DNA of 25,326 nucleotides from IMG/VR virus record IMGVR_UViG_3300047373_000698, positions 1 to 25,326 of that record. One strand, 5' to 3'. Position 1 is the stretch's first letter, and the number at the start of each line of letters is the position of its first letter. The translations under genes were made by a program, and so were the position numbers. The notes under the pieces were generated by a model that made no database searches, was not told the DNA's origin, and saw only the letters and a list, made by a program, of their open reading frames with translations. Origin of the DNA: a virus. Of the stretch, positions 3,188 through 24,434 are shown piece after piece.

Positions 3188-3190
3188 AAT

Positions 3191-3634: not shown

Positions 3635-3636
3635 AA

Positions 3637-6386: not shown

Positions 6387-6397
6387 TAATTTTTTGT

Positions 6398-6586: not shown

Positions 6587-6621
6587 AATCTTAATTATTT
6601 AATAACATTTATATTTGATTA

Positions 6622-6633: not shown

Positions 6634-6662
6634 AATATATAAAAATAAATATCTAAGTCCAA
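6634..6662 (-). promoter_or_regulatory. Promoter TTGGAC-N17-TATATT before the RHH-like gene
   Basis: Minus-strand -35 TTGGAC (6657-6662) and -10 TATATT (6634-6639) are separated by exactly 17 bp. The -35 overlaps the last codons of the nuclease gene. The predicted start at about 6627 gives a 41-nt leader to the ATG at 6586. It belongs to the promoter family seen at eleven places in the window. Confidence 0.6.
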
Positions 6663-7558: not shown

Positions 7559-7561
7559 AAC

Positions 7562-8204: not shown

Positions 8205-8614
8205 AATAATTTATTTATTTCTTTTTTTTGTATTCCCATACGCTCCAATATACGAAAAATTTCGTCATCTCCCAAAAAGTTCAAATATTCTCTTACTTCA
8301 TTTTGTGAACATTCCCAATATTTAGATAAATATACTAATAACTCTGTTTTTTGTTGTTTGATATTAGATTTAATATACTTATTCCATTTATTATTCTTAG
8401 GAATATATTCTCTATAAATTGAGTATATTTGTTCCTTATTTTGAGGGTGAATTTTCTGAGCTTCATTTACTAACTCCAAAAAGTCACTATTCATAGACAT
8501 AAATCTATGAATCATATAACTATTCCAAAGTTCCCAATCTTTATCTGAGAATGATGAGGGATCGGATTTAATTGAATTAATCTGTTTTAACCAATCCCAA
8601 ACATTTTTAACCAT
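8201..8614 (-). CDS. 62: Clamp loader small subunit (T4 gp62-like)
   Basis: A 137-residue protein that matches the marine T4-like version of gp62 in pattern: SFSDKDWELWNSYMIHRFMSMN (family: x-x-x-Y-x-P-F-x-x-N-R-x-L-S), then FLELVNEAQKI, then IYREYIPKNNKWNKYIK, and a helical end LSKYWECSQNEVREYLNFLG. gp62 binds four gp44 ATPase subunits to form the complex that loads gp45 on primed DNA. It is shorter than T4 gp62 (187 residues). Context is strong: gp44 is one gene upstream, as T4 also keeps 62 and 44 adjacent. It starts 1 nt after the 90-residue gene. The call is from motif memory plus position; sequence conservation in this family is low. Confidence 0.68.
   Translation of the reverse strand: MVKNVWDWLKQINSIKSDPSSFSDKDWELWNSYMIHRFMSMNSDFLELVNEAQKIHPQNKEQIYSIYREYIPKNNKWNKYIKSNIKQQKTELLVYLSKYWECSQNEVREYLNFLGDDEIFRILERMGIQKKEINKLL
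8247..8275 (-). promoter_or_regulatory. Promoter TTGGGA-N17-TATATT inside the gp62-like gene
   Basis: -35 TTGGGA (8270-8275), -10 TATATT (8247-8252), 17-bp spacer ending CG, as in several other copies. The predicted start near 8240 gives a 36-nt leader to the ATG at 8204. The downstream sequence reads TATATTGGAG, identical to the copies at 3209 and 18899. Confidence 0.55.
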
Positions 8615-8615
8615 T

Positions 8616-8888
8616 CTACTCAGATAAAATACTTGAATCAGCTAATTCTTCTCTTAACTCCATTGGTAATCCATCTGCTAATATCTTATCAGTATAAGGA
8701 TCAACAAAAACTGGAATAGGCATGATAGCATCGCTTTCAGTACCTGCAACGTATTTTGAAATTTTTCTAAGGATAACTCTTGACTTCCAAATGTCTGTAC
8801 CTTTAGAATTTTTAACTGGTTTAGTTGATGTTAAATCAACATTTACTTGTGGTTGTTGTGGTGTAGCACCACCTGCACTTCCTCTCAT
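8616..8888 (-). CDS. Hypothetical protein between gp44-like and gp62-like genes
   Basis: A 90-residue protein I do not recognise. The first 30 residues look disordered (glycine, proline, glutamine), followed by a compact segment: DIWKSRVILRKISKYV (32-47), then AIMPIPVFVDPYTDKILAD and a helical acidic end ELREELADSSILSE. The strand-rich centre with D-P-x-T-x-K-I suggests a small folded domain. It starts 1 nt after the gp44-like stop and ends 1 nt before the gp62-like start, so it is locked into the clamp-loader operon and may be expressed in proportion with it. Function unknown. Confidence 0.72.
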   Translation of the reverse strand: MRGSAGGATPQQPQVNVDLTSTKPVKNSKGTDIWKSRVILRKISKYVAGTESDAIMPIPVFVDPYTDKILADGLPMELREELADSSILSE

Positions 8889-8889
8889 A

Positions 8890-9804
8890 TTATTTATTAT
8901 TTATTAAATTATTAATTAAACTCATTATATTAATTTCCTTATCAATTCGGAAATTAGCTTTGTATTGATGGTCATTAACTAAAATAGCTACTGTACCTTC
9001 TTTACCAGGCATATAATCACTTGCTTTATCATATAAAGTTCTAAATAGATCTTCATAATCATCTGTATTAGCGTTAGCAACTATTTGTCTAATATTTTTA
9101 AAATTTGGTTTAGATTTCTTTAATTCATCTATAATTCCATCTATATAATTAGATGAAAATAAAACTGATTTATCTAATTTAAGTTCACCATTAACTGTAT
9201 TAGCTTGAATTGTATTAATACATTTTCTTAAATCGGGATAAAATTGTAATACTATGGATCCTAAACTGTCCATATCAAATGCAATTTTTTCTAGATCCAT
9301 AATCCAAGATAAATGGTAAGCAACTTGTTTTTTGCTTGGTGGAACTACTTTTAATACTTGACATCTTGATTGTAGTGGATCTATTATTCGTTCCACATAA
9401 TTACAAGTTAAAATGAATCTAGTAGTTCTGGAGAATGTTTCTATTATATTACGTAATGATGCTTGGGCTTGTATAGTAAGAAAATCTGCTTCATCTAATA
9501 TAACTACTTTAAGTGGTTTAAATGATGCTACGGAAGCAAAGCTAGATACTTTATCTCTAATAGTTTCAATACCTCTTTCATCTGAAGCATTTATATAAAC
9601 ATGGTCACAGTCTAAATTATTAACTATTAATTTAGCTAATGTAGTTTTACCTGTACCAGCAGGTCCATAAAATATAAAATTTTGGATATCATTATTATAT
9701 AATTGAGATGCAATGGAAGATTTTAAATTCTCATTACCAACATAATCTTTTAATTTTACTGGTCTGTATTTTTCTACTAGTAAACTATGATTAGTATTCT
9801 CCAT
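8890..9804 (-). CDS. 44: Clamp loader ATPase large subunit (T4 gp44-like)
   Basis: A 304-residue AAA+ ATPase of the RFC/gp44 group. KYRPVKLKDYVGN (12-24) is the clamp-loader signature; Walker A GPAGTGKT is at 47-54; Walker B VVILDEAD at 100-107; sensor 1 TCNY at 133-136; the trans-acting SRC arginine motif at 146-148. The rest is the helical lid and collar. Length is close to T4 gp44 (319). In the cell it works with the gp62-like subunit to open the gp45 clamp with ATP. Its start overlaps the upstream 88-residue gene by 14 nt. All catalytic residues are present. Confidence 0.95.
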   Translation of the reverse strand: MENTNHSLLVEKYRPVKLKDYVGNENLKSSIASQLYNNDIQNFIFYGPAGTGKTTLAKLIVNNLDCDHVYINASDERGIETIRDKVSSFASVASFKPLKVVILDEADFLTIQAQASLRNIIETFSRTTRFILTCNYVERIIDPLQSRCQVLKVVPPSKKQVAYHLSWIMDLEKIAFDMDSLGSIVLQFYPDLRKCINTIQANTVNGELKLDKSVLFSSNYIDGIIDELKKSKPNFKNIRQIVANANTDDYEDLFRTLYDKASDYMPGKEGTVAILVNDHQYKANFRIDKEINIMSLINNLINNK

Positions 9805-10057
9805 AAATTGAATATTGTTTAATTGGTTCAGGTTTTACTTCTTCTTCAGTTGTAGAAATAGCATATAACTCACTTTTTAGGGGAGCTAACCTATACTCCC
9901 CTTTAAAGCCAGTTTTCACCATATAAGCTTCTAAGGCATCAGTAAGCGTTTTATGGATAGGACCATCAGGTTCATTTGCAATAAGTCTCCACTTATCACC
10001 TGGTGGTACCCTGCGAGCAATTAAAATATTCTCTTCTATAACCTTCTTTTTTGACAT
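9791..10057 (-). CDS. Hypothetical small protein with predicted leaderless mRNA
   Basis: An 88-residue protein not recognised. It has a basic start (MSKKKVIEENILIARRV), a compact middle with PPGDKWRLIANEPDG, a helix TLTDALEAYMVKTGF, and an acidic C-terminal tail rich in E, K, P and Y. No membrane segment. The gene has its own promoter (TTGGAA-N17-TATATT); the sixth base after the -10 box is followed by ATG, so the predicted first transcribed base is the A of the start codon. It overlaps the gp44-like gene by 14 nt, so this promoter probably supplies the clamp loader too. Confidence 0.7.
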   Translation of the reverse strand: MSKKKVIEENILIARRVPPGDKWRLIANEPDGPIHKTLTDALEAYMVKTGFKGEYRLAPLKSELYAISTTEEEVKPEPIKQYSIYGEY

Positions 10058-10063: not shown

Positions 10064-10092
10064 AATATACGAAATTATTTATTAAATTCCAA
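10064..10092 (-). promoter_or_regulatory. Promoter TTGGAA-N17-TATATT, predicted +1 at ATG 10057
   Basis: -35 TTGGAA (10087-10092) lies within the last codons of groEL; -10 TATATT is at 10064-10069, preceded by TTTCG. With six bases between -10 and +1, transcription starts at 10057, which is the A of the ATG. No leader and no ribosome-binding site would exist. Confidence 0.65.
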
Positions 10093-11728
10093 GTCCTGAT
10101 TGAGGTACTCCATTATTTTCATAACCTCTATCTTTAAACTCATCACTATCTTTATCTTCAATAATAGTACATTCTGTTAATAAAACTGTACCTGCTACTG
10201 AAGCTGCATTTTGTAATGCTAATCTAGTAACTTTAGTTGGATCAATAATTCCTGCTTCCTTATAATCTATTACTTTTCCTTCATCAATGTGAATTCCTGC
10301 CCAATGATCATTACCTGAATCTACTAGTTTATATTTACCTAGTAATTGTGCTTCAGTTGAATCATAACCAGCATTAAGTAATATTTGTTCAAATGGTTTA
10401 CCACATGCTTTATATACAATCTCAGCTCCAATACTTTCTTTATTTTTAATAGCTTCTCTAGCATAAAGTAAAGCAACACCACCACCTGGGAGTATTCCTT
10501 CTTCAATTGCAGCTTTTGTAGCATGTAATGCATCATCAACTCTATCTTTTCTTTCATTCATTTCAGTTTCTGTAAATCCACCTACATGAATAATAGCGAC
10601 ACCACCTACAAATTTAGCTAATCTATTTTGTAACTGTTCAGTTTCATAAGGTGTTTTTGATTTATCAAGTTGAACTTTAATTTCTTCAATTCTTGATTCA
10701 ATTTTTTCAACTTCACCTTTACCATCAACTATAGTAGTTTGTTCTTTTTCTACAGTTACTATTCTAGCTTCACCAAACCAATCCCAACTAAATTTGTCTA
10801 ACTTCATTCCTTTATCTTTACTAAATACAGTACCACCTGTAGTAATAGCTATATCTTCTAAGATAAGTTTTCTTCTATCTCCAAAATCGGGAGCTTTAAC
10901 AGCACAAACACTTAATGTACCTCTCATTTTATTAACTATAAGAGTAGCTAATGCTTCATTATCTATATCTTCAGCAATTATTAATAAAGATTTACCTTGA
11001 GCACCTACTGCTTCTAAAATTGGAAGTAATTCTTTAACTGAAGATAATCTACCATCAACAATAAGAATAGCAGGATTTTCAAGTACTGAAGTCATATCAT
11101 TGTTGTTAGTAACAAAATATGGAGATTTATAACCTCTAGCAAATTGCATTCCTTCCACAGTTTCAATATAATTATCTGCTGTTCTAGATGATTCAATATG
11201 AACTACACCTTGTTGACCAACTTTATCTACTGCAGTAGCAATTAATTTTCCTACTTCATTATCATTATTAGCTGAAACTGTAGCAATTTGTTCTAATTGA
11301 TTTTCTTCACCTATATCCTCAGATAATTTTTTCAATTGTGAAACAACTTCTTTTACTGATTGGTCAATATCTCTTTTGATTTGAACTGCATTTTCTTTAT
11401 TATCTAGAGCTGTTAAACCATTTTTAATGATTTCTCTAGCCAATAGTGTTGATGTAGTTGTACCATCACCAGCCTTATCTGCTGTTTTAATTGCAGCATA
11501 CTTAACTAATTGAACTCCAAGTTCTTGATTAGTTTCTTTTAATACAATATTTCTAGCAACTGTAACACCATCTTTAGTACTTTGAGGTGGGTCAATAATA
11601 CCCTTACCTATAACAACATTTCTTCCGTTAGGTCCTAAAGTTGAAACTACAGCATCAGCTAAAATATCTATACCTTTAATTAAATTTTTTCTGGCTTGTT
11701 TGCCAAATTCTACTTTTTTCATAATCAT
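10082..11728 (-). CDS. groL: Phage-encoded GroEL-type chaperonin
   Basis: A full-length 548-residue group I chaperonin. Visible landmarks: LGPNGRNVVI (31-40), the ATP-binding TKDGVTVA (51-58) and GDGTTT (87-92), the segment DRVDDALHATKAAIEEG with the catalytic aspartate equivalent to E. coli D398, and LPGGGVALLYARE. The true start may be the second ATG (residue 3), which gives the usual MKKVEFG beginning. The C-terminus ends NNGVPQSGLGI, without the Gly-Gly-Met tail of most bacterial GroEL. It follows groES by 2 nt, the normal groES-groEL order. T4 encodes only a GroES substitute (gp31), so a phage carrying both parts could supply a complete folding machine, for example for capsid protein (inference). 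Confidence 0.97.
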   Translation of the reverse strand: MIMKKVEFGKQARKNLIKGIDILADAVVSTLGPNGRNVVIGKGIIDPPQSTKDGVTVARNIVLKETNQELGVQLVKYAAIKTADKAGDGTTTSTLLAREIIKNGLTALDNKENAVQIKRDIDQSVKEVVSQLKKLSEDIGEENQLEQIATVSANNDNEVGKLIATAVDKVGQQGVVHIESSRTADNYIETVEGMQFARGYKSPYFVTNNNDMTSVLENPAILIVDGRLSSVKELLPILEAVGAQGKSLLIIAEDIDNEALATLIVNKMRGTLSVCAVKAPDFGDRRKLILEDIAITTGGTVFSKDKGMKLDKFSWDWFGEARIVTVEKEQTTIVDGKGEVEKIESRIEEIKVQLDKSKTPYETEQLQNRLAKFVGGVAIIHVGGFTETEMNERKDRVDDALHATKAAIEEGILPGGGVALLYAREAIKNKESIGAEIVYKACGKPFEQILLNAGYDSTEAQLLGKYKLVDSGNDHWAGIHIDEGKVIDYKEAGIIDPTKVTRLALQNAASVAGTVLLTECTIIEDKDSDEFKDRGYENNGVPQSGLGI

Positions 11729-11730
11729 TT

Positions 11731-12087
11731 TTATATATCTGTTAAATGTTCTTTATCAATTTCACTTACTTCTGTTTCCGCCAGTACATCTTCTACTGGT
11801 ACAGTTACTTTGGCTAAGATTTGATTCTCAGGACCAACATAATATTCTTCACCATCAAATTGTAGTTTAGTGAATCCCATAGTTGGTAAGACAATTCTAT
11901 CTCCCACCTTAATAATTGTTTGTAAAAATTCTCCTGAATGTGTATGCTTTCCAGGACCTACAGCTATAACTTCACCTACTTCATTTAATTCTTTACCCAT
12001 GTCTGGTACAATAATACCCCCATAAGTAACTTCCTCATTTTCAATAGGTTTAACAATAACTGCGTCAAATAGTGCTTCTAAGTTCAT
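11731..12087 (-). CDS. groS: Phage-encoded GroES-type co-chaperonin
   Basis: A 118-residue co-chaperonin. AVIVKPIENEEVTYGGIIVP covers the N-terminal strand and mobile loop that docks on GroEL (core GGIIVPD, compared with the usual G-G-I-V-L/I). GEVIAVGPGK is the signature turn, and VKVGDRIVLP-like IKVGDRIVLPTMGFTKLQFDGEEYYV is the family's C-terminal beta part. It is about 20 residues longer than bacterial GroES because of an acidic tail after the core. It overlaps the upstream 101-residue gene by 4 nt and precedes groEL by 2 nt. Length is similar to T4 gp31 (111), but the sequence is closer to bacterial GroES. Confidence 0.95.
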   Translation of the reverse strand: MNLEALFDAVIVKPIENEEVTYGGIIVPDMGKELNEVGEVIAVGPGKHTHSGEFLQTIIKVGDRIVLPTMGFTKLQFDGEEYYVGPENQILAKVTVPVEDVLAETEVSEIDKEHLTDI

Positions 12088-12389
12088 AATTGTGTAATGT
12101 ATTGTTTAATATTTGATTCGATTTTTTTATAATTTTCTATAACATCATCAATAGATGTATAATTTTCTTTCGTATGCAATTGCATTTTTGAAATAGATTC
12201 TAATGCACTTCCCAAATTGGGATGGTAAGTTTGGGGTTTACTATATTCCTTTCCTTTACCTTTTGTTCTAAAATGGTCAGCATTAGGTTTAATACGTTCT
12301 TGTACAGTATAACAATGGTCATCCTTTGTTATAAAGTAAGGATCCAATTTAGGATCTTCTATAATTGTAAGTTGTTTGCTTTTTTTCAT
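12084..12389 (-). CDS. Hypothetical protein upstream of groES, predicted leaderless
   Basis: A 101-residue soluble protein I do not recognise. After a basic start it has PKLDPYFITKDDHCYTVQER (13-32), a compact segment with aromatic and charged residues, then a lysine/glycine-rich linker (FRTKGKGKEYSKPQTYHPNL) and a helical second half (LGSALESISKMQL, IDDVIENYKKIESNIKQYI). Its stop overlaps the groES start by 4 nt, so the two are translationally coupled. A TATATTG box ends 5 nt before the ATG, so the transcript should begin at the start codon. It could be linked to the chaperone function by expression, but no evidence gives a role. Confidence 0.68.
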   Translation of the reverse strand: MKKSKQLTIIEDPKLDPYFITKDDHCYTVQERIKPNADHFRTKGKGKEYSKPQTYHPNLGSALESISKMQLHTKENYTSIDDVIENYKKIESNIKQYITQL

Positions 12390-12395
12390 AACGTC

Positions 12396-12424
12396 AATAT
12401 ACGAAAAAACATTTGCTAGGACAC
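12396..12424 (-). promoter_or_regulatory. Promoter-like TATATTG box, predicted +1 at ATG 12389
   Basis: -10 TATATT (12396-12401) preceded by TTTCG, exactly as upstream of the 88-residue gene; the -35 position (12419-12424) reads GTGTCC, which is poor. The spacing to ATG is identical to three other genes, putting +1 at the A of the start codon at 12389. Probably the chaperonin operon promoter. Confidence 0.5.
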
Positions 12425-12442
12425 GTTTTTTCAGTAAAACTT

Positions 12443-12865
12443 TTATTTAATCTTAATAGATTTTGGTTTAGCTTCATCAGCTAAAGGTATAAAAATATCT
12501 AATAGACCATTTTCTAAAATAGCATCAATACCACTTAAATCAAATTTAGGTGCTATTTTGTATCTTAAATCAAATGATTTTTTAGATAAACCATTATGAA
12601 TCATTCCATCATGGAATTTCTCATCTTCTAGTTTAGTATAACTAATTTTTAAAATATCCCCTTCAATATCTACTACAATGTCTTTTTTAGTAAGACCCGT
12701 ACAAGCTACTTCAAAATGAAGTCCTGCATCATTGAAAAAAATATTAACGGGATGTGGTTGTTTGAAATTTCCAACAGGTTGAAATGTGCTGTCAGATTTA
12801 AAGTGATTCCTAAAAAGGATGTCGAAAGGACTTATATGCCTTTCAAAGATTTCTAATGTACTCAT
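12443..12865 (-). CDS. Small heat shock protein (Hsp20, alpha-crystallin domain)
   Basis: A 140-residue protein with an alpha-crystallin domain from about residue 36 to 130: PHPVNIFFNDAGLHFEV, CTGLTKKDIVVDIEGDILKIS, and the diagnostic A-x-x-x-x-G-x-L strand AILENGLLDIFIP. The C-terminal I-x-I anchor is SIKIK at the very end. These holdases form oligomers that keep unfolding proteins soluble; Hsp20 genes are known in T4-like marine cyanophages. The gene has its own promoter and an 83-nt leader containing a strong UUCG hairpin 15 nt before the ATG. It is followed by the 101-residue, groES and groEL genes, so a whole chaperone block is present. Confidence 0.93.
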   Translation of the reverse strand: MSTLEIFERHISPFDILFRNHFKSDSTFQPVGNFKQPHPVNIFFNDAGLHFEVACTGLTKKDIVVDIEGDILKISYTKLEDEKFHDGMIHNGLSKKSFDLRYKIAPKFDLSGIDAILENGLLDIFIPLADEAKPKSIKIK

Positions 12866-13675: not shown

Positions 13676-14398
13676 TTATTCGTTTCGTGCTATATAATAA
13701 ATACTGTTTATATCTCCTTCAAATGCAATTTTCATCATCCCTTGTTTAGAGATTTTAATAGAACAATTATCTATATCTTTATTTGCATTTAAAATATCTT
13801 TAAATATATCAGAATTAAATGGTAATTTTACATCACTATCTTTTATAATTCCTTGTAATTGGTACTCTATTTTATTTGAAAATCCTGTATTATCACCAAA
13901 TAAAAATTGGCAAACTAAATTTCCATCTAAATCTTTAGTTGATTGAATTAACATATTGTCTACATCATTTAAAGCATTTTTAGCTTTAATTAAATTATCT
14001 ACTTCTTCTCTTTCTAAGTCTAATTCAATTTCAAAACCTTCATCTGGATCACTATACCAAGGTGTTTTTCCCATGATAAGTGTATCAGCTAAAGCGTAAG
14101 CTAGTTCAAAATTAGTATCTGATATGTTTAATTTGGTATGTAATTCACCTTGTTTTTCAGATGATAATAATAAATCACCATTTGTAATAGCTAAAAGTTT
14201 TATTAATTTATTTGTATCGAATACTCCTACTTCACAATCCTCAAATTCAAAATTATCTAAAACTACTTTACATACCCTACCTGATTCACCAGCATAAACA
14301 GTTAATGTATTATCCTTGATTCTCCATTTAACCTGATTATTTAATCCATTAATGTAATATTTTGCAATAAAAGATTGTAGTGTGTTTTTGTTTATCAT
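13676..14398 (-). CDS. 45: Sliding clamp, DNA polymerase processivity factor (T4 gp45-like)
   Basis: A 240-residue protein (T4 gp45 is 228) that fits the trimeric phage clamp: an N-terminal LQSFIAKYYINGL helix, a strand-rich first half with NTLTVYAGESGRVCKV and a second repeat-like half with KLPFNSDIFKDILNANKD and SIKISKQGMMKIAFEGD, equal to the end of PCNA-type domains. Clamp sequences are weakly conserved, so context matters: the polymerase C-terminal half is 23 nt upstream and the clamp loader is downstream. The ATG is the predicted transcription start of its own promoter (TTTGAG-N17-TATATTG), so translation would be leaderless. The polymerase C-terminus has a matching clamp-binding peptide. 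Confidence 0.85.
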   Translation of the reverse strand: MINKNTLQSFIAKYYINGLNNQVKWRIKDNTLTVYAGESGRVCKVVLDNFEFEDCEVGVFDTNKLIKLLAITNGDLLLSSEKQGELHTKLNISDTNFELAYALADTLIMGKTPWYSDPDEGFEIELDLEREEVDNLIKAKNALNDVDNMLIQSTKDLDGNLVCQFLFGDNTGFSNKIEYQLQGIIKDSDVKLPFNSDIFKDILNANKDIDNCSIKISKQGMMKIAFEGDINSIYYIARNE

Positions 14399-14404
14399 AT
14401 CGTC

Positions 14405-14433
14405 AATATACGTAAGTTTCTTTATACCTCAAA
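14405..14433 (-). promoter_or_regulatory. Promoter TTTGAG-N17-TATATT, predicted +1 at clamp ATG 14398
   Basis: -35 TTTGAG (14428-14433) lies in the last codons of the polymerase C-half; -10 TATATT is at 14405-14410 preceded by ACG. Six bases separate the -10 box from the clamp ATG, so the predicted +1 is the A of the start codon. Confidence 0.62.
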
Positions 14434-15363
14434 GGAATCAAATGCATTTATGTAGGGGTTTAAATCTAAACTCCATTGTAAATCACTAAAAAATCCTTCT
14501 AATTTATTTAATAATATAGATTCAAATACTTTTTGTCTATCAGCATAAGCATTTAAAAATTCCTTAATCTTATCTGGCATGTCATAATCAAAAAATGCTA
14601 GTGCCTCTATTTTATATGGGTTATCTTTTAGATAGATCCATTTAACTTTATCAGCCATAGTAATAAGATTATATTTTCTATCTAATTTCCATAATTTAAG
14701 TAAATCATTATAACGAATAGCTGCACGAACAGGTGCAGGTGCTCCCTTTAATATTTCAGTAAATAATTCTCCAGCTCTAGCTGAATGTCCAGAATATTTT
14801 TGTAATTTTTTTACAGCAGTAGGATTACCTAATTTAGTTAATGGTATTTTACCACTAATTATTTTATGTTTAAAATCCTTAATCTGTTTTATTATATTAT
14901 CCTTTTTCTCACCCTTTAGAACTTGTTGAAGGATATCGTTGAAAAATTCCCCCAAAATAGGTGGAAAGTTTGCTTTCATAAACTCTAGACCTTTGATATC
15001 CAAGACTTCTTTGTTTATACCTTCTTGCTTTGTAATCCATTGTGCGTATCTTCTTGTTGCCCTGAAATAAGCTGAACGAATAACACATTCAGTTTTCATT
15101 TCAAGTCTGTGATTCGTGACGTTGAAGGTCTCACGAGCTAACCTATTATAATCTTCTGTTATTATATCTTGATAAGCTAAAGCTACTTTTTCTAAGTTAC
15201 CATCTTTTTCTTCATCAGATAAATTTTCAAAATTAGGAAATAAATGTAAAAGTATTGGTTCAGCATTAAAGTAATTTGAGTCTGTATCCACATAAGCACA
15301 ATAATTTGTGTCTTCTTTATCGCAAATAAACCAAGGTGTTTCTTCTAAATGCTTCATTTCCAA
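14422..15363 (-). CDS. 43B: DNA polymerase family B, C-terminal half (motif C and thumb; gp43B-like)
   Basis: A 313-residue protein that is the missing end of the polymerase. It has motif C YVDTDS at 24-29 with both catalytic aspartates (D26, D28), the K-x-x-Y-type segment in TECVIRSAYFRATRRYAQWI, then GLEFMKANFPPILG and a helical thumb. The last residues, NAFDSFEV, resemble the clamp-binding tail of T4/RB69 gp43 (LFDMFDF). There is no exonuclease and no motif A or B. With the N-half (567) the total is 880 residues, near T4 gp43 (898). The ATG could also be residue 3. It overlaps the sulfotransferase gene by 10 nt. No intein-like sequence is present, so the halves must assemble non-covalently to be active (inference). 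Confidence 0.92.
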   Translation of the reverse strand: MEMKHLEETPWFICDKEDTNYCAYVDTDSNYFNAEPILLHLFPNFENLSDEEKDGNLEKVALAYQDIITEDYNRLARETFNVTNHRLEMKTECVIRSAYFRATRRYAQWITKQEGINKEVLDIKGLEFMKANFPPILGEFFNDILQQVLKGEKKDNIIKQIKDFKHKIISGKIPLTKLGNPTAVKKLQKYSGHSARAGELFTEILKGAPAPVRAAIRYNDLLKLWKLDRKYNLITMADKVKWIYLKDNPYKIEALAFFDYDMPDKIKEFLNAYADRQKVFESILLNKLEGFFSDLQWSLDLNPYINAFDSFEV

Positions 15364-15974
15364 CTATCTTTATTATAGTTACCTAATTTAAAAATTATAT
15401 TATCTTTTTCATAAATAAAATCAGCTATTTCCTGATCCATAAATCTAGTAACTTTTTGATGTCCATTATCATCATATTCATCTAATGGTTTTTCTCCAGC
15501 TACTGAATTATGTAATATTTGAGGTTTAATTTTTTCCCAATTTTTAATATTATTAATAAATTGAGGAATACTTTCCCAATCCTCAGCTATATGTTCCAAT
15601 CTAATAAAATAATCTGGAACAGCCAAGTCTTTCCATTCATACCAATAAAACATATCTAAATCATCAGGATAATTTTTATATCTATGTTCATAACAATATT
15701 CTTTAAAATCAAAAGTAGCACCATCTGCCCTTAAATCAATATAAGCTGATACTGCTCTAGTATAAGGATTTCTAATAGAACAAATGATTTGATAATCTTC
15801 ACAACCTGGAGGGATGCCTTGATCATGTAAAAATTGTCCAAATTTTTCTTCTTTTTCTTCCCAAGGATAATAAACGTATCTATCTCCTAAACTATCAAAA
15901 GCAGCTAAATTACTTCTACTGGCACAGCCAGCAGTAGCCCAATAAATTAAACCATGTTCTTTATTATAGTTCAT
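15354..15974 (-). CDS. Sulfotransferase-like protein
   Basis: A 206-residue protein of the PAPS-dependent sulfotransferase fold. TAGCASRS (14-21) takes the place of the 5'-phosphosulfate loop, IRNPYTRAVSAY (67-78) is the 3'-phosphate-binding R-x-P-x-x-R-x-x-S-x-Y motif with R68 and S76, and the end ADFIYEKDNIIFKLGNY matches the I-Y-x-x-D-x-x-x-F-x-Y finish of Sulfotransfer_2-type proteins. It would move sulfate from PAPS to a hydroxyl or amine, often on a sugar. The loop has C-A-S-R-S rather than K-T/A-G-S/T, so the catalytic lysine is missing and activity is uncertain. It lies between the two polymerase halves, overlapping both neighbours by about 10 nt. Confidence 0.8.
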   Translation of the reverse strand: MNYNKEHGLIYWATAGCASRSNLAAFDSLGDRYVYYPWEEKEEKFGQFLHDQGIPPGCEDYQIICSIRNPYTRAVSAYIDLRADGATFDFKEYCYEHRYKNYPDDLDMFYWYEWKDLAVPDYFIRLEHIAEDWESIPQFINNIKNWEKIKPQILHNSVAGEKPLDEYDDNGHQKVTRFMDQEIADFIYEKDNIIFKLGNYNKDSWK

Positions 15975-16335
15975 ATTCTTTTACATCAAGATAATCACTT
16001 CCAGTTACAAGATTAATATCATTTTTAAGATCATTCCTTTCTTCATTTAATTCAAATATTTTTCTTGAAGCTTTTATAAATTCCTTATCTTTAATTTTTT
16101 TATTTCTTACTATATTTTCTAAATCCCATAACATTCCATTAATACGAGCTAAATTTAAATATAACATTTGAAGCGAGCTATCATTTTTAGTAAATAAACT
16201 AACACATTTAGGGTTTAGCTCTAAAAATTCTCTTTCTACCGCAGCTAATTTAGCTGAATCTTCTACTCTAAGTTTTTTTAACTCTAAAATAGAAATTCTA
16301 TCTAATAACTCACCATTTGAAATTTTTATCTTCAT
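15964..16335 (-). CDS. DUF6165-like protein
   Basis: A 123-residue helical protein. MKIKISNGELLDRISILELKKLRV matches the DUF6165 start (I-x-x-G-E-L-L-D-K-x-x-I-L-x-I-K), and the rest follows the family pattern: E-x-x-x-L near 35, LARINGMLWDLEN (62-74), FIKASRKIFELNEERNDLKNDIN and a final K-E-Y. Biochemical function is unknown; relatives are often near sugar-transfer genes, which fits the sulfotransferase next door. Overlaps it by 11 nt and ends against the 87-residue gene. Between the polymerase halves. Family name is from pattern recall. Confidence 0.75.
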   Translation of the reverse strand: MKIKISNGELLDRISILELKKLRVEDSAKLAAVEREFLELNPKCVSLFTKNDSSLQMLYLNLARINGMLWDLENIVRNKKIKDKEFIKASRKIFELNEERNDLKNDINLVTGSDYLDVKEYEL

Positions 16336-16599
16336 CTAAAATCTTGTATCACCTGGGATTTTAATTACAGGTCCAGGTTTTTTACCTTGTGAATCCCTTA
16401 AAGGGCTATCTAAATCAATTTGAAATGTTACATTATTTATTTTAAATCTAAATACTCCTTGTTTTAGAAATTTTTTAAATGCTTTTTCTTGTTTTTCAGA
16501 CCAAAGTTCACTCATAGTAATTAACTCTTCTTTACTGATAGTTTCCCCATTTGCTATAATATGCATATTTTTTCTAATAGATTGTTTTTTTAATGTCAT
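16336..16599 (-). CDS. Hypothetical protein next to polymerase N-half
   Basis: An 87-residue basic protein I do not recognise. The first third is helical (NMHIIANGETISKEELITMSELW), then KQEKAFKKFLKQGVFRFKINNVTFQIDLDSP, and a proline/glycine tail with KKPGPVIKIPGDTRF. A start at the second methionine (residue 12) is possible. Its first codon overlaps the end of the polymerase N-half by 4 nt, so the frame is well supported by packing. It resembles no endonuclease or intein, so it does not explain how the polymerase gene was split. Confidence 0.65.
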   Translation of the reverse strand: MTLKKQSIRKNMHIIANGETISKEELITMSELWSEKQEKAFKKFLKQGVFRFKINNVTFQIDLDSPLRDSQGKKPGPVIKIPGDTRF

Positions 16600-18299
16600 A
16601 TGTTTAATTTAATTTCATTTCTTATTACTTTATTCATATGCTTATTTGCACATAAAGCAGATTCTTGAATAATTCTGTGACCAGATAAAGTAATTGCTTC
16701 ACTTAATATAGATTCTGGTAATCCATATCTAAATCCAGGTAATGCTGTAGCACCATATAAACTATTAAGCAAAATTTTCATTGTATATTGCATTAAATAA
16801 TAATAATCCCCCATTACTTTATCTCCTGATTTAAATGCTTTTTTCATTTTGTTTTTGTAATCAACTCTTTCATCAAACCATTTATTTAAAACAGTTGATA
16901 ATGTTGATTCTTTTTCAGTTGAAAAAATAGAACCATTAGCAGATATTGAAAAATTATTTTGTTCAATCATTGCCACTAATCTACCAACATTAACTCTAGT
17001 AGATTTATCTTTAGAATTTCTAATTAATAATTCTTCTTCAGGATCACGTTTTTTTAAATCGTTAAGACCCAATCTATTATTACGGTCATCTGCATCAATA
17101 ATACGCCCTACAAAAGTTTCTCTACCTATGTTTAAAGACATAATTATAGATGGATACAGCGATGTTAAATCCTCATCAAACATATATTTGTACAATCCAG
17201 CTTTGGGGCAAAACAAATAACCCCCAGCATATCCTTTTTTAGCTTTAGGGTTAGCATGTCTAGCAGGTGGAATAATTCCTTGTGATAATAAGTAAGCTGA
17301 TATAGCTCCATCTTGTGTAACACTATTAGCATATACTTCACTATAATTATGTTTACCCTTATGTGATAGATTTTTAGTTAAAGCAATATATTGAAGTTTT
17401 TCATCTAATAACTTTAATATCTCAACATCACGGAAGTTATATTGGATAAATTTATGTATATCAGATTCAAATAATTGATCTAAATTACCTTCATATTCTA
17501 CTTTACCTATACCAGTATATTTTTCTCCAATAGCATCTAATTTCCAACTAGGCTCATCTTTCCAACTGTACTTTTTATGTAAACGAATATAATCTAAAGA
17601 TTCAACTCCAATTATATCTACAAACTGATTACGTTTAAAGAAATATTCATTATTCTTTTTTGCATTAACTTTACCAATTGGTGATAAATGATCAGCCCAA
17701 TCTTTACCTAATACATTACACATTCTATAATATAAATAAGGTATATCAAAGAAATCACTATTATAACCTATTAAAATGTCAGGATCAATTTCTCTAAACT
17801 TTTCTAAAAATTTACCTAATAATTCACTTTCTGTTTTACAAGGTATAATTTCTTTATTTTTAGCTTTAGTATGATTTAATTCTGATTTTTTATCTAAAAT
17901 TAAAATAGACCACCAATCTTCTTGTTTATCCCACCAAGCTATAGAAGTAATAGGCATTGGAGCACTTTCAATATATTCCTCGGTTAAGGCGCCTCCAATT
18001 TCACACTCGATATCAAAAAATAATTCTTTATGGCTTGTAGAAGGTTCATCAGCAGTACCATATCTTTCAACAAGATATTTTTGATGAGGTTTCATATCAT
18101 GAAAATGTAAATTAGGTGTATTTCTATCCCAATTTGTTGTTTTCTTTAATTTTTCCCCATTAATACCTTTTAAATCACCTTCATTATCTTCTACATAAGA
18201 AGCATTATACCAAATAATTTCATCGTACCCAATGTCATCCCAAAGAAATACTTTGTATTTATTATCTTTTATTTTTTGGGTATAACACTTTTTATACAT
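16596..18299 (-). CDS. 43A: DNA polymerase family B, N-terminal half (exonuclease, motifs A and B; gp43A-like)
   Basis: A 567-residue protein with the proofreading exonuclease and most of the polymerase fold. Exo I FFDIECE (D96, E98), Exo II YNSDFFD (179-185), Exo III YNFRD (Y287, D291), motif A DLTSLYPS (377-384) and motif B KILLNSLYG (508-516) are all intact. It stops 51 residues after motif B, before the motif C aspartates, which are in another gene 1.2 kb further on. Two-piece gp43 has been described in some Aeromonas T4-type phages. Its start overlaps the MazG-like stop by 8 nt; a promoter inside that gene gives an 85-nt leader. All catalytic residues of the split pair are present, so this looks like a working split enzyme, not a decayed gene. 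Confidence 0.96.
   Translation of the reverse strand: MYKKCYTQKIKDNKYKVFLWDDIGYDEIIWYNASYVEDNEGDLKGINGEKLKKTTNWDRNTPNLHFHDMKPHQKYLVERYGTADEPSTSHKELFFDIECEIGGALTEEYIESAPMPITSIAWWDKQEDWWSILILDKKSELNHTKAKNKEIIPCKTESELLGKFLEKFREIDPDILIGYNSDFFDIPYLYYRMCNVLGKDWADHLSPIGKVNAKKNNEYFFKRNQFVDIIGVESLDYIRLHKKYSWKDEPSWKLDAIGEKYTGIGKVEYEGNLDQLFESDIHKFIQYNFRDVEILKLLDEKLQYIALTKNLSHKGKHNYSEVYANSVTQDGAISAYLLSQGIIPPARHANPKAKKGYAGGYLFCPKAGLYKYMFDEDLTSLYPSIIMSLNIGRETFVGRIIDADDRNNRLGLNDLKKRDPEEELLIRNSKDKSTRVNVGRLVAMIEQNNFSISANGSIFSTEKESTLSTVLNKWFDERVDYKNKMKKAFKSGDKVMGDYYYLMQYTMKILLNSLYGATALPGFRYGLPESILSEAITLSGHRIIQESALCANKHMNKVIRNEIKLNI
17970..17998 (-). promoter_or_regulatory. Consensus promoter inside the polymerase N-half gene
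   Basis: A full consensus copy, -35 TTGGAG (17993-17998), 17 bp, -10 TATATT (17970-17975) followed by G. The next gene start is 1.36 kb away, so its role is unclear: it could express a shorter in-frame polymerase piece or just be a chance match in codons for E-E-Y-I-E. Confidence 0.35.
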
Positions 18300-18837
18300 T
18301 ATCTATTTCTTGTTGTGTAAAAAATTTACGTAAATTGGGTTTAAAATAGTTAATTGATTTCATTACTTTTTTGTCTCTCGTTCTGTAGACAATATACCTT
18401 CCTTCCTCAAGTTTCTCAAAATGGCAGGCCTCACCTTGTTCCTCACTTCGAACCCTGACGGTATCCAAGGCTTCTTTTTCAGATTTGCAAGCTTTTGACA
18501 TATTAGATGCTTGTACTTCTTGATATGCAGGCCATATCTTATCTTTAAGGCCGTGTAACATAGTACCGTTCCCAATGGAAACGTAAGCAATATCGCACAA
18601 AGCGTCCAAAACCTCCACGATGTCTCCTCTTTCGCAAGCTTCCTTATATTCTTCAAGTTCTTCAAGGATGAAGTCATAAACGAACTTCCATTCCTTTTTT
18701 TCTGGTATTGTTGTTTCATAATTGTTTGGTTTGCCAAATGTGGCATTAAATATTTCTACTTCGTCTACGAAAGGTACCGACGGAGATGCAGGTACTTCGT
18801 AGTTTAATTCATCAAAAATTGTTAATTGTTTAGTCAT
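18292..18837 (-). CDS. MazG-like / PRA-PH-type NTP pyrophosphohydrolase
   Basis: A 181-residue all-alpha NTP pyrophosphohydrolase. After about 25 extra residues, VEIFNATFGKP begins the fold; the metal site is E59-E60-x-x-E63 (LEELEEYKEA) with E75, D78 and D82 in VEVLDALCD; ASNMSKA and the end KKVMKSINYFKPNLRKFF match a subgroup common in Bacteroidota. These enzymes hydrolyse (d)NTPs to monophosphates, adjusting nucleotide pools. Base composition is visibly richer in G+C, with different codon choice from the neighbours, which suggests recent acquisition. It overlaps both flanking genes by 8 nt. A promoter in the upstream gene gives a 55-nt leader. Confidence 0.88.
   Translation of the reverse strand: MTKQLTIFDELNYEVPASPSVPFVDEVEIFNATFGKPNNYETTIPEKKEWKFVYDFILEELEEYKEACERGDIVEVLDALCDIAYVSIGNGTMLHGLKDKIWPAYQEVQASNMSKACKSEKEALDTVRVRSEEQGEACHFEKLEEGRYIVYRTRDKKVMKSINYFKPNLRKFFTQQEIDNV
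18391..18419 (-). promoter_or_regulatory. Promoter TTGAGA-N17-TATATT for the DNA polymerase N-half
   Basis: -35 TTGAGA (18414-18419), -10 TATATT (18391-18396) followed by G, 17-bp spacer. It lies in the MazG-like gene; predicted +1 near 18384 gives an 85-nt leader to the polymerase ATG at 18299. Confidence 0.55.
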
Positions 18838-19318
18838 TATTACTTATTTTTTTCCACCAGGATGTTTTTTCACTACCTCGTGGCATGCTTAATCCTCCAA
18901 TATAATTAGCATCTCCCAGATGCTCAAATTCTTTTAAATAATCAGGTAATGCTTCTGAATCTTTTCTTTCCCAAGGATAAACAATCCATTCTGGGCCAAC
19001 TTCTTTAGCATAAAAAGTGGGTTTAAATTTTGAAGATGATTTATGATGTAACACAGCATGATATCTTCCTGGTGCATTACTTAATGTTTCTCCTGTATCA
19101 TTAATATCATCTACAATTATAGTATTATTTTCAGGTTCAAATACTAAAGGTATACCCAATTCATGAGAAATTAATACTGCTGGTATTAATCCTCCTCTTG
19201 GTAATCCCATAACTGAATCTATATTAGGATAATCCATGAATATTGTTCTACTTAAAATTTGTATACAATCTATTATCTCATCCCAGTCTAGATATACTTT
19301 AGATATTGTGTCCCCCAT
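18830..19318 (-). CDS. Type I phosphoribosyltransferase-fold protein
   Basis: A 162-residue protein. SVMGLPRGGLIPAVLISHEL (35-54) is the pyrophosphate loop region and TIIVDDINDTGETL (66-79) is the PRPP-binding motif with D70-D71 and T75-G76, so the type I PRTase fold is clear. Enzymes of this fold join or remove a base and phosphoribose; the base is unknown. It overlaps the FolE gene by 20 nt. Its place next to FolE suggests a job in purine or deazapurine metabolism, for example salvage of a released base (inference). The C-terminal third, with PEWIVYPWERKD, is typical of xanthine/hypoxanthine-type PRTases. Confidence 0.88.
   Translation of the reverse strand: MGDTISKVYLDWDEIIDCIQILSRTIFMDYPNIDSVMGLPRGGLIPAVLISHELGIPLVFEPENNTIIVDDINDTGETLSNAPGRYHAVLHHKSSSKFKPTFYAKEVGPEWIVYPWERKDSEALPDYLKEFEHLGDANYIGGLSMPRGSEKTSWWKKISNND
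18899..18927 (-). promoter_or_regulatory. Promoter TTGAGC-N17-TATATT before the MazG-like gene
   Basis: -35 TTGAGC (18922-18927), -10 TATATT (18899-18904) inside the phosphoribosyltransferase gene. Sequence after the -10 is GGAGG, so it shares TATATTGGAG with the copies at 3209 and 8247. Predicted leader to 18837 is 55 nt. Confidence 0.45.
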
Positions 19319-19988
19319 TATTTATTTTTAAACTATCAAAAAATTCTTTTCTAGCTAAATTATCATTATCTCTAAATACTCCTGTTGCTTTAGTTGTAAC
19401 CATGGCTGCTCCTTGATGTTTAACTCCTCTACAACTTACACAATTATGTGTACCTACAATAGTAACAATAACACCTTTATTATTTTCACAAATTTTATCC
19501 ACAGCATTATGAATAGCTGATGTTAGTTGTTCTTGAATTGCTCCCCTCCTTCCAAACAATTCTACTATTCTATTTAATTTAGATAATCCAATTACTCTAC
19601 CATTATCCCCAACAACATATCCAACATGAACTACACCTCCAATTGTTTGGTGGTGATGAGAACACATTGAAGTTAACGGTATATTTCGTTCTATAACAAT
19701 ACCATCATAACCATCTGATGGAAATGATGTAATTGGAGACATCTGTGTGTATCTACCAGCCCATAAATCATTTACATATGCTTTAGCTACTCTGTGAGGT
19801 GTATCAGCTGAATTAGGATCGTTTTGCCAATCACACTTTAATGCTTCTAAAAACCTGGCATAGGCCTTAGTAGCTTTATTAATCATTTTCTGTTTTTCTT
19901 TATCATTTAGAGGAAAACCAGGTGCAACTCCATTTGCAAAACCTTCTTGTACTACTTCTAAATCTGTATGTTGTTTTTTTCTTGCCAT
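19299..19988 (-). CDS. folE: GTP cyclohydrolase I (first step to preQ0)
   Basis: A 229-residue enzyme converting GTP to dihydroneopterin triphosphate. Zinc ligands are C109 and H112 in MCSHHHQTIGG, and C183 in HNCVSCRGVK; GTP-binding residues are in GLSKLNRIVELFGRR (134-148), followed by QEQLT. The first zinc motif is C-S-H-H-H rather than the common C-E-H-H, and a 20-residue N-terminal extension is present. In this setting the product feeds QueD, QueE and QueC rather than folate. The ATG is exactly where its own promoter (TTGGAG-N17-TATATTA) predicts the first transcribed base, so the mRNA would be leaderless. It overlaps the phosphoribosyltransferase gene by 20 nt. Confidence 0.95.
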   Translation of the reverse strand: MARKKQHTDLEVVQEGFANGVAPGFPLNDKEKQKMINKATKAYARFLEALKCDWQNDPNSADTPHRVAKAYVNDLWAGRYTQMSPITSFPSDGYDGIVIERNIPLTSMCSHHHQTIGGVVHVGYVVGDNGRVIGLSKLNRIVELFGRRGAIQEQLTSAIHNAVDKICENNKGVIVTIVGTHNCVSCRGVKHQGAAMVTTKATGVFRDNDNLARKEFFDSLKINNGGHNI

Positions 19989-19994
19989 AACTGT

Positions 19995-20023
19995 AATATA
20001 ATAAAATTTTTAATTAACTCCAA
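19995..20023 (-). promoter_or_regulatory. Promoter TTGGAG-N17-TATATT, predicted +1 at folE ATG 19988
   Basis: -35 TTGGAG (20018-20023), -10 TATATT (19995-20000), 17-bp spacer. Six bases separate the -10 from the folE ATG, so the predicted +1 is the start codon. It lies between the oxygenase stop and folE. Confidence 0.68.
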
Positions 20024-20635
20024 CTAATTTGCATATTGAAGCCATGTTGTTAAAATGTATTTATCATCCGATTCTGGCATATATCCTTTATGAATATAAG
20101 GCCAACTAGCTGGGTGGATGATTAATTTACCCAGTGAAGGTTTTACTTTATAAAAATCTTTACCTTCTTTAAATAAAAATCCAGTTTCACCTCCCTTATC
20201 TACATCATTTAAATAAAGAATATAAACAAATTGTCTAATTGATGATTCTAAATTTTCTTTTTCTACATGCCAAGCATTATAATGACCTGATCCTTTGTCA
20301 TATTTTTGGATTTGTAATAAAGGATAATATGTTTTATCTTCTACAATCATATTATGACGATAAAGATCATGATGAGGAAAATTATTTAAATAAGTATCTG
20401 TATACTGATTAAATCTTTCCATAACAAAATTAGATAAATTATCATCACTAGTATTATTTTGATTTAAAATATTATAATCATTGCTTTTTTTATATTCATT
20501 TATACCACCATCACCACTCATACCTTTATATGATAATCCCTCATTATGAACAGTTTCAAACCTGTCAATTAGTAATTGACATTCAAAGGGTGTAAAAGCT
20601 TTTTTGTATACTCCTATTGTATCTTTAAATTTCAT
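20024..20635 (-). CDS. 2OG-Fe(II) oxygenase, prolyl-4-hydroxylase-like
   Basis: A 203-residue double-stranded beta-helix oxygenase. PLLQIQKYDKGSGHYNAWHVE has the typical Y-x-x-G-x-x-x-x-x-H turn; the iron triad is H123-x-E125 (Glu replaces the usual Asp) with H182 (YIHKG); K192 is placed to bind 2-oxoglutarate as in P4H enzymes. VYILYLNDVDKGGETGF and GKLIIHPASWPY are the core strands. It would use O2 and 2OG to hydroxylate an unknown substrate. The H-x-E variant may reduce hydroxylation or favour other chemistry. It overlaps the upstream 66-residue gene by 11 nt and sits inside the preQ0 gene run. Confidence 0.85.
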   Translation of the reverse strand: MKFKDTIGVYKKAFTPFECQLLIDRFETVHNEGLSYKGMSGDGGINEYKKSNDYNILNQNNTSDDNLSNFVMERFNQYTDTYLNNFPHHDLYRHNMIVEDKTYYPLLQIQKYDKGSGHYNAWHVEKENLESSIRQFVYILYLNDVDKGGETGFLFKEGKDFYKVKPSLGKLIIHPASWPYIHKGYMPESDDKYILTTWLQYAN

Positions 20636-20825
20636 TTAAATATTCTTTTAATTTATCAATTAATACTAATACCTCATCAGGTTCCATTGTGATTGCACAA
20701 CAAACCCCTACATTTTCTTCAATTTCTTCTAAGATTTCTAATGCTTCTTCTCTAGACACATCTTTCAGTGTTAAATGCCATGATATGAGAACGGCCTGTA
20801 AATCTCCATCCTTTATCTCTAACAA
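20625..20825 (-). CDS. Small acidic helical protein overlapping queE
   Basis: A 66-residue protein, probably one or two acidic helices (SREEALEILEEIEENVG, then PDEVLVLIDKLKEYLNEI). As given, the start lies 74 nt inside queE in another frame; a GTG near 20757 (VSREEALEI) would reduce this to a few bases overlapping the queE stop and is at least as likely. The downstream overlap with the oxygenase gene, ATGAAATTTAA, supports real coding. I do not recognise the family. Function unknown. Confidence 0.55.
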   Translation of the reverse strand: MLEIKDGDLQAVLISWHLTLKDVSREEALEILEEIEENVGVCCAITMEPDEVLVLIDKLKEYLNEI

Positions 20826-21534
20826 AATTCATAACAGGACCATAAGATTCCATTAAGCTTTCCCTATCATCTCCAGCAGGCATAGCCCAAACTTTATCTT
20901 TTGGTATTTTACATTCATTAAGAAATTCTTCTACTTCACTAACCATAGATAATTTATTATCCAATACAGGTTTAATGTGGTAATCATCATGATATTCAAT
21001 AGATTGTTTTATTGCTTCAATATTTAATCTTTTTGAATTATGTTTCTTAACCATCTTTTCATCAACTACAGCTCCTTGAGGTGTTACCGCGCCAATAACT
21101 GGCACGCTATTACTAAATTTAGGGCTAATAGATAATAAATTAATAGGGTAGTCTGTTGGGAGAAAGTGACTCCCTTCAGTTTCGATAGTAATAAAAATAT
21201 CGTTTTCATGTGCAAAATGTGTTAATTCATTAACCAAAGCAGGATGCATTGTAGGCGATCCTCCTGTTAACATCATCTCTTTTATATGAGGATGTTCATT
21301 GTACATATCAATAATGTCTTGAAAACAAAATGTACCCTTTTCTGGGTGTATACTAGTATACCAAGAATCACACCACCCACCTTCTCCAAAGTAGCATCTA
21401 TGTGTGCATCCTGATGTTCTAACTACGATTGTTGGGTAACCTTGTCTTGACCCTTCTGATTGTACTGCAGTGTATAATTCTAATACACCTAGTGTTTTTT
21501 GATAGTCTTCTATCCTTTTTAATTGTTTGTGCAT
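20752..21534 (-). CDS. queE: 7-carboxy-7-deazaguanine synthase (radical SAM)
   Basis: A 260-residue radical SAM enzyme making CDG from 6-carboxytetrahydropterin. LYTAVQSEGS (20-29) is the QueE beginning (family S-x-Q-G-E-G), the cluster-binding cysteines are C43, C47 and C55, i.e. C-x3-C-x7-C (SGCTHRCYFGEGGWC) instead of C-x3-C-x2-C, and LTGGSPTMHP is the SAM-binding motif with Ser in place of the usual Glu. IETEGS and LLSISPKFS follow. Insertions in the QueE cluster loop are known in the family. The end RCV-stop overlaps the 66-residue gene. It is 44 nt downstream of queD and part of the same gene run. Confidence 0.93.
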   Translation of the reverse strand: MHKQLKRIEDYQKTLGVLELYTAVQSEGSRQGYPTIVVRTSGCTHRCYFGEGGWCDSWYTSIHPEKGTFCFQDIIDMYNEHPHIKEMMLTGGSPTMHPALVNELTHFAHENDIFITIETEGSHFLPTDYPINLLSISPKFSNSVPVIGAVTPQGAVVDEKMVKKHNSKRLNIEAIKQSIEYHDDYHIKPVLDNKLSMVSEVEEFLNECKIPKDKVWAMPAGDDRESLMESYGPVMNFVRDKGWRFTGRSHIMAFNTERCV

Positions 21535-23639: not shown

Positions 23640-24434
23640 TTATGCTGAATAATCAGCTAAGACCTTTGCTACAGAATCTCTAGCTACTTCCCAAGCCACT
23701 GGACCAGTTTCGTCTTCATATTGAACGGGATCTGGACGATCCAAAGCAATAAACGCTTCAATTCTTTCAACAGATGAAGCAGACTTATAATCACTGTTCC
23801 CACTAGGATAAGGCTTATAACTAGTATTAGTTCGAGAATAGACTTCATTAAAATCGAGTTCTAAAATTTCACATAAATACTCCCCATTTTGAAGTATCCC
23901 TAACTTGTCTGTATCGAGATAAGGTGTAAAATACCCTACCCTTTCAGCATCCCAATTACCGACTCTAAATGCATTATCATCTGCATCTCTAAATTCTTGT
24001 CTACAATCAGGGTAAATAGCATGATCACCAGCATGTATCCCTAAACAAATATCTACTTTTTCCTCTGTAGCATTTGCTTTAGATAAAGCAACGGCTTGAG
24101 TAATAGAAGCAAACATTTTATTTCTATTGGGTACTACTGTTTCTTTCATATTATCTTGCTCATAATGTCCTTCTGGAACATCATCACCACCTTGAACAAG
24201 GGCAGAATTTAATAAATCAACTAAACCATCAAGTTTAATTTGTTTATAAGTTACATTGTGACCTTTACTAGCCAGATAATCTATAAGAGACTGTGCTCTT
24301 TCCAATTCAACTCTATGTTTTTGACCATAGTCAAATGATAAAGCTGTAACTGAATCATACTCAGATAACGCTCTGAGAAGAAGTGTGGAACTATCCATTC
24401 CTCCACTTAACGAAACAACTGCATGTTTATTCAT
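23640..24434 (-). CDS. queC: 7-cyano-7-deazaguanine (preQ0) synthase
   Basis: A 264-residue enzyme that converts CDG to preQ0 with ATP and ammonia. The PP-loop SGGMDSS is at 10-16, SFDYGQ at 33-38, VPNRN at 101-105, and YPDCR at 141-145. The C-terminal zinc region is changed: where the family has four cysteines (pattern S-C-Y ... C-x-x-C-x-x-C-x-x-R-x-x-A-F), residues 201-228 have T-S-Y ... S-A-S-S-V-E-R-I-E-A-F, with no cysteine at all. R-x-E-A-F is still aligned. There is also a 30-residue C-terminal extension. G+C is a little higher than average. It follows the transglycosylase-like gene by 14 nt. Confidence 0.94.
   Translation of the reverse strand: MNKHAVVSLSGGMDSSTLLLRALSEYDSVTALSFDYGQKHRVELERAQSLIDYLASKGHNVTYKQIKLDGLVDLLNSALVQGGDDVPEGHYEQDNMKETVVPNRNKMFASITQAVALSKANATEEKVDICLGIHAGDHAIYPDCRQEFRDADDNAFRVGNWDAERVGYFTPYLDTDKLGILQNGEYLCEILELDFNEVYSRTNTSYKPYPSGNSDYKSASSVERIEAFIALDRPDPVQYEDETGPVAWEVARDSVAKVLADYSA

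Follow-up and report, generated by a model that had tools for sequence, protein, structure and literature searches.

The DNA polymerase of T4-type phages (gp43), a member of family B (PolB), reportedly occurs as two proteins, 43A and 43B, in Aeromonas phages 44RR2.8t and 25, as described by Petrov, Ratnayaka and Karam in 2010. Methanothermobacter also makes its PolB from two genes. A review states that 43A and 43B of phage 25 purify together and have activity (PMC2988022). Other sources describe a split-intein PolB in Pseudomonas phage MIJ3, together with an HNH endonuclease (PMC6892783), and a split alpha subunit of DNA polymerase III (PolIII) in some jumbo phages (PMC7824862).

Here, a viral DNA of 25,326 nucleotides (nt) was analysed (IMG/VR record IMGVR_UViG_3300047373_000698, positions 1 to 25,326; the whole stretch is called the window), in which a T4-type PolB is encoded by two genes with three others between them. 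We assign a probability of about 0.85 to the reading that these genes encode the replicative gp43 of a phage lineage not yet in culture, that this enzyme consists of two chains which are broken within the palm and assemble noncovalently, and that the break had an endonuclease-like origin and is now a slot for other genes.

Two pieces of one polymerase

The two pieces (named N and C) and their key codons are located in the window as follows.

16596..18299, minus strand: N piece of the gp43-type PolB, 567 amino acids (aa), ATG start; exonuclease domain, motif A, fingers and motif B
17169..17171, minus strand: codon for D377, the motif A aspartate of the N piece (placed by counting from the start of the gene)
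14422..15357, minus strand: C piece of the gp43-type PolB, 311 aa from ATG 15357; motif C and thumb
15280..15288, minus strand: motif C codons GAT ACA GAC, which are D24, T25 and D26 of the C piece

In the translation of the N piece, ExoI (FFDIECE), ExoII (GYNSDFFDIPYL) and ExoIII (YNFRDVEIL) could be read, followed by motif A (DLTSLYPS, containing D377) and motif B (KILLNSLYGA, from residue 508), and motif C of the C piece reads YVDTDS. D377 was invariant across 20 aligned rows, and the DTDS of motif C across 25. The N piece matched positions 57-569 of phrog_262 (DNA polymerase, 856 positions; 3e-107) and the C piece positions 565-842 (1e-43), and therefore no part of the family is missing. 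Both PF03104 and PF00136 were over the Pfam cut-off in the N piece, and the C piece reached 20.4 bits with PF00136 vs. a cut-off of 23. These two pieces were the only PolB matches in the window record. The original prediction of a PolB in two genes, one with ExoI-III and motifs A and B and the other with motif C and the thumb, is borne out by the motifs and by the full coverage of phrog_262, and, judged from their sequences, both pieces together are a T4-type family B DNA polymerase (gp43). The single chain by which gp43 would be recognised is not what was found: there are two open reading frames (ORFs) in the window, and the same holds for all 126 distinct junctions described below.

The C piece had been listed at 14422-15363, with a TTG start at 15363 and 313 aa. 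The gene stands, but ATG 15357 is the likelier start, because it overlaps the preceding stop codon (ATGA) and is aligned with the start in relatives. The palm aspartates do lie on two genes as predicted, and those of motif C are renumbered from D26/D28 to D24/D26.

By sequence, the N piece matched RB69 gp43 with an E value of 2e-46, and its weak third domain match (6.9 bits) ended near RB69 residue 611, shortly upstream of D621/D623, the motif C aspartates of RB69. A search of PDB sequences with the C piece gave no significant match, and the first Foldseek match of its predicted model was RB69 gp43 (E 1.8e-7). Because the N match ends near residue 611 and the C model resembles RB69 gp43, sequence and model together place the break between the palm helix following motif B and the hairpin bearing motif C. 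Structures were predicted for single chains. In the C-piece model, the thumb (131-290) is RB69-like, with block means of 75-95 in the predicted local distance difference test (pLDDT), and the palm parts (1-13, 23-26 and 88-128) have a pLDDT below 50, as if the palm half missed its partner; a shallow alignment could give the same pattern.

Junctions, selection and origin across the lineage

Searches of IMG/VR with the N and C pieces reported 227 and 477 relatives, and the best 80 of each were kept. They yielded 66 distinct complete N/C pairs, all split, with gaps of 210-4214 nt (median 660), while 31 loci that were partial, one-sided or had a C piece with no ATG found were set aside. After further searches, 281 loci had been examined, 18 of which were too fragmentary; the remaining 263 gave 126 distinct junctions, which are distinct sequences and not independent lineages (L304 and L305, for example, are close copies). 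All 126 were split and none was fused, and the distance between the two matches ranged from -1 to 4286 nt (median 656). A control by the same method used the polymerase of Microcystis phage Mel-JY01, which is in one piece: among the 50 loci that it returned, 47 were in one frame, one was in two frames (L199), and two did not have both matches and were uninformative. The deepest search returned 32 loci, 31 of them new: 17 split (including L364, described below), 12 in one frame and two with no C match. In L361, also from this search, the C match sits in a short frame.

Three matching contigs were found in bacterial genome collections and bins. L302 and L303 carry the N piece, an 87-aa gene (o87) and the C piece, and L304 carries the N piece and part of the C piece, 90 nt apart. 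Two of the three are labelled Flavobacteriaceae, which gives no more than a hint of the host. The collection of named phage records contained none matching either piece at an identity of at least 60%. Two long records of the clade (138,667 bp and 119,075 bp) contained no PolB match beyond the split gene and no PolA or PolIII-alpha match.

On the minus strand of the window, the order is N piece, genes of 87, 123 and 206 aa, C piece and clamp gene. These neighbours and a clamp loader gene are as follows.

16336..16599, minus strand: o87, 87-aa gene without a significant family match, found in the break more often than any other gene; start codon (ATG) overlapping the N-piece stop
15964..16335, minus strand: 123-aa DUF4254/DUF6165 protein (both Pfam models over cut-off), a variable resident of the break
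15354..15974, minus strand: 206-aa protein that at most resembles sulfotransferases, with a match below the Pfam cut-off; a variable resident of the break
13676..14398, minus strand: sliding clamp (gp45-like; phrog_223, 8e-6), the next gene after the C piece
8890..9804, minus strand: clamp loader large subunit (gp44-like; phrog_168, 1e-76)

The ratio of nonsynonymous to synonymous substitutions (dN/dS), obtained by simple counting from pairs with a dS of 0.1-1.5, had medians of 0.20 (N piece), 0.16 (C piece), 0.32 (clamp), 0.36 (DUF6165) and 0.42 (o87). Among 58 representatives of 112 (sequences used: N 58, C 57, clamp 58, o87 49 and DUF6165 36), pairwise distances of the N piece correlated at 0.89 with those of the C piece, 0.80 with the clamp, 0.34 with DUF6165 and 0.24 with o87. 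The N and C pieces descend together, as does the adjacent clamp, and o87 and DUF6165 do not follow closely. N pieces within the clade differ by nearly half of their residues. They typically end in NKVxRxExKLxI, with longer tails in a few of the 66 pairs, and the C piece starts with MKHLEETPW in 63 of the 126 junctions and with near variants in the others; at that start, six of the 126 have no ATG (five with GTG/valine and one with a leucine codon). By manual count from alignments, about 20 residues have been added at the break relative to one-piece kin.

In both the N tree and the C tree, the sampled split rows formed one group (100/100). The next group out consists of L365, L366 and L364 (joined with 100/100 and 98/99), and the polymerases of L365 and L366 are in one piece. 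L364 is sister to L366 in both trees (100/98) and is split (5863-9121) at the site equivalent to the window break: its N part ends in INKELGII, a 211-aa protein follows, and its C part begins with MKDFIVTGDTDS, restarting at an ATG just ahead of motif C. L366 is uninterrupted at the same site, where it reads INTELQTDKDYVVTADTDS. The 211-aa insert matched NUMOD1 over the Pfam cut-off, and GIY-YIG with an E value of 0.0015, below the cut-off. From its sequence, L364 looks like a recent endonuclease insertion, and by analogy it suggests how the older split of the window clade may have begun. That older split would most likely have arisen when a homing endonuclease or comparable element entered this loop, to be succeeded later by ordinary genes.

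A place for LR756508 in the same split event was considered and rejected, both trees setting it apart from the split clade as well as from that clade's one-piece sisters. It groups with Mel-JY01 and other one-piece rows in the N tree (92/90) and lies beside L365/L366 plus the window group in the C tree (82/76); on this evidence, its split is likelier, though not certain, to be a separate event. When its C part served as the query, no relatives turned up. This 484-kb uncultured phage record (L003) has a two-piece PolB at 1928-9852 with an insert of about 3 kb that includes a cytidine deaminase, and intein-like stretches at motifs B and C (Pfam intein/Hint scores below cut-off, the rest by eye). 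In L199 (6001-10084), PolB is broken at motif C, and intein-like halves flank a 322-aa gene, the Pfam intein score being below cut-off.

The gap as a gene slot and the weighing of explanations

The gap is a slot for exchangeable genes; at its smallest the stop and start codons overlap, and at its largest it measures about 4.3 kb. The three unrelated genes that had been noted between the pieces (87, 123 and 206 aa) are indeed present, but represent one state of a variable slot and not a fixed insert. In the 66 pairs, o87 occurred 58 times (by ORF pick), DUF6165 40, a mannose-isomerase-type cupin 15, cytidylyltransferase-like genes 12, sulfotransferase-like genes 5, DegT aminotransferases 5, GNAT acetyltransferases 3 and formyltransferase-like genes 2, besides others. 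In L352, a gene for a cysteine-synthase-type pyridoxal phosphate (PLP) enzyme lies inside the polymerase break (2937-3842; PF00291, 1e-62). The same kind of enzyme was recognised by eye inside the break of L353 (7631-8509), and the gap of L354 holds a 71-aa protein that resembles Smr by eye and had no Pfam match. Glycosyltransferase-like genes and a DegT-type aminotransferase were seen by eye at 1-6386 of the window, the DegT kind also occurring in the polymerase slot of relatives. In L343, the gap is empty and the N stop overlaps the C start (ATGA), and in L305 the pieces are in the same frame, separated by one stop codon and 9 nt. Because both are nested inside a supported 42-row group of the clade (quick tree; Shimodaira-Hasegawa-like approximate likelihood ratio test, SH-aLRT, 95), they have probably lost their inserts while the split persisted.

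The ATG of the next ORF overlaps the N stop in 96 of the 126 junctions, and the C ATG overlaps the preceding stop in 89 of the 120 junctions that have an ATG. Since the gap genes are mostly joined to both pieces by overlapping stop/start codons, coupled translation across the slot is suggested. A promoter scan gave 32 promoter-like sites vs. 29.2 in shuffles and three terminator-like sites vs. 1.2, and was given no weight.

By tblastn, o87 was present in 122 of the 126 gaps, and it was present in 11 of the 16 split loci of the deepest search other than L364. It had nothing over the Pfam cut-off and no NCBIfam match; PHROG matches were weak (best E 0.0033, in one of 39 members), and the best E value against PDB sequences was 0.048, to a designed protein. 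The AlphaFold2 model was middling (pLDDT 73.8) and gave no Foldseek match at E<=0.001 and a best VIA-align Z score of 2.1, results that exclude nothing. Among named relatives, o87 was not found in Mel-JY01 and had two weak matches in LR756508 (E 0.004 and 0.007). A 43-kb record with no N or C match (L226, 3658-5169) carries a cupin gene and o87 beside a gene that is QueC-like by eye.

Several other explanations of the two-gene arrangement were weighed. About 20 additional residues at the break are too few for known intein halves, and the two window pieces gave no Pfam match to an intein/Hint model up to E 0.1. It is thus very improbable that a split intein joins the pieces into one chain after translation (a 'fractured gene'), although split-intein PolB exists in L199 and, as reported, in phage MIJ3 (PMC6892783). 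Joining at the RNA level, through an intron spliced in cis or trans, has a similarly slight chance: group I introns of gene 43 are reported for phage 25 43B and JSE (PMC2993671), but no Rfam match up to E 1 was found in 14300-18400 of the window, the gap is made of ORFs linked through stop/start overlaps, and its contents change from locus to locus, amounting to anything between zero and about 4.3 kb. A third possibility, in which assembly or a frameshift error produced the split or the gene has decayed, and another polymerase replicates the genome, draws on the fact that these genomes are known as fragments only. It is the least credible of all, given that 126 distinct junctions share the break, that contigs binned with bacterial genomes show it too, that dN/dS is 0.16-0.20, and that the two long records have no other polymerase match. 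Because none of the 126 junctions is fused, the ends are conserved, selection is purifying and divergence is correlated, the split, as read from these sequences, is neither an assembly or frameshift error nor gene decay. The one-piece control, with 47 of 50 loci in one frame, points the same way.

An obligatory role of o87 as a third subunit bridging both pieces was at first favoured, as it occupies nearly every gap, is the sole resident of the shortest filled gaps, and is read in the order N-o87-C in 75 of the best 80 o87 loci, four others being cut at the contig end. This role was then weakened and now appears doubtful: o87 is missing from the gaps of L013, L304, L305 and L343 and was not found in five of the 16 deeper split loci (in all of these genomes it could be encoded elsewhere), it stands outside any polymerase break in L226, next to the cupin gene, and its distances correlate poorly with those of N and C (0.24).

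The explanation that we prefer remains an enzyme of two noncovalently joined chains. The division of labour is seen in the sequence, the N piece supplying the exonuclease, motif A and the fingers, and the C piece motif C and the thumb. The two chains would most likely join without a covalent link into a single palm; one chain would then contribute the motif A aspartate and the other the motif C aspartates of a shared active site. This part of the original prediction is supported by family coverage, motifs, selection, co-divergence, the lack of intein matches in either piece and of Rfam matches in 14300-18400 of the window, and the two long relatives, in which no other polymerase matched. The gap would now be a slot of swapped genes, with translation probably coupled by the overlapping codons. 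Several points weigh against this explanation. The N-clamp distances also correlate at 0.80, and therefore shared descent explains much of the N-C correlation. The placing of the N end on RB69 depends on the 6.9-bit third domain match, and the assembly and activity of N + C stand on inference, the models being single chains. The endonuclease origin is argued by analogy with a single contig, L364, where the GIY-YIG match falls short of the Pfam cut-off; no endonuclease was found in the clade's own gaps as scanned, the scan covering part of the gap genes, and no endonuclease model was over cut-off in the three gap genes of the window. Moreover, in the 138,667-bp record only the N piece matched the Pfam PolB model, and the 119-kb and 139-kb records may be incomplete genomes.

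A more tentative proposal, which we consider possible but rather unlikely, is that selection keeps the polymerase two-chained, with the N tail and the C head (MKH..TPW) forming a new docking element and the break serving as a lasting landing slot. The docking element would then be part of the enzyme, and therefore no re-fusion would be seen even where the insert was lost (L343, L304/L305), and through the slot the phages would exchange accessory genes, including those for sugar-nucleotide and amino-acid functions, which would be expressed together with a core replication gene.

Elsewhere in the window, FolE- and QueE-like genes (NCBIfam matches below cut-off) and a gene that is QueC-like by eye were found at 19299-21534 and 23640-24434. 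Some phages modify their DNA via the 7-deazaguanine pathway, which these genes perhaps form. A GroEL gene (NCBIfam over cut-off) followed by GroES- and Hsp20-like genes recognised by eye lies at 10082-12865.

Comparison with known split polymerases

If the proposed explanation is correct, two parts of one active site would be carried on separate chains in a replicative polymerase, with a break unlike that of 44RR. This would be a natural test of how far the palm of family B polymerases tolerates cutting, and might serve as a starting point for switchable polymerases in two parts. With the L364 sister contig, it becomes possible to study how a selfish insertion turns into a fixed enzyme of two subunits, and surveys that count full-length PolB could overlook this group.

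The Aeromonas 43A/43B pair is likewise a T4-type PolB from two adjacent genes for which no intein is reported, and the original prediction rightly pointed to split gp43 there. However, the 44RR break, placed by the position of motif B, is a different one: motif B falls within 43B, the second piece, about 46 residues after that piece begins, whereas in the window clade it is in the first piece. In addition, the 44RR gap is 49 nt, and that of the window clade is a gene slot, with the split marking a whole lineage. The window pair would work like the Aeromonas pair but falls outside that arrangement because the break site differs. Matches of phrog_2062 and phrog_1918 to the window pieces are distributed as expected for a split ahead of motif B.

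In MIJ3 and L199, a gene also lies between the pieces, and in L199 PolB is broken near motif C as well, but these systems have intein-like halves and MIJ3 also an HNH endonuclease, neither of which the window pieces show. The break of L364 falls at the corresponding position, after the palm helix and before motif C; L364 differs in being a separate event (its sister L366 is in one piece), in still having the endonuclease-like gene, and in having no added head on the C piece. The split PolIII alpha of jumbo phages likewise has its catalytic part on two proteins, but it belongs to another polymerase family and its genes are far apart. The two-gene polymerase of Methanothermobacter is of family B, but archaeal and cellular. 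No description of the present break was recognised in the titles, abstracts and passages of the literature searched, which does not show it to be unpublished. Split gp43 as such was already known; what sets the window clade apart is a break inside the palm that extends across the lineage, shows no intein and serves as a slot for genes.

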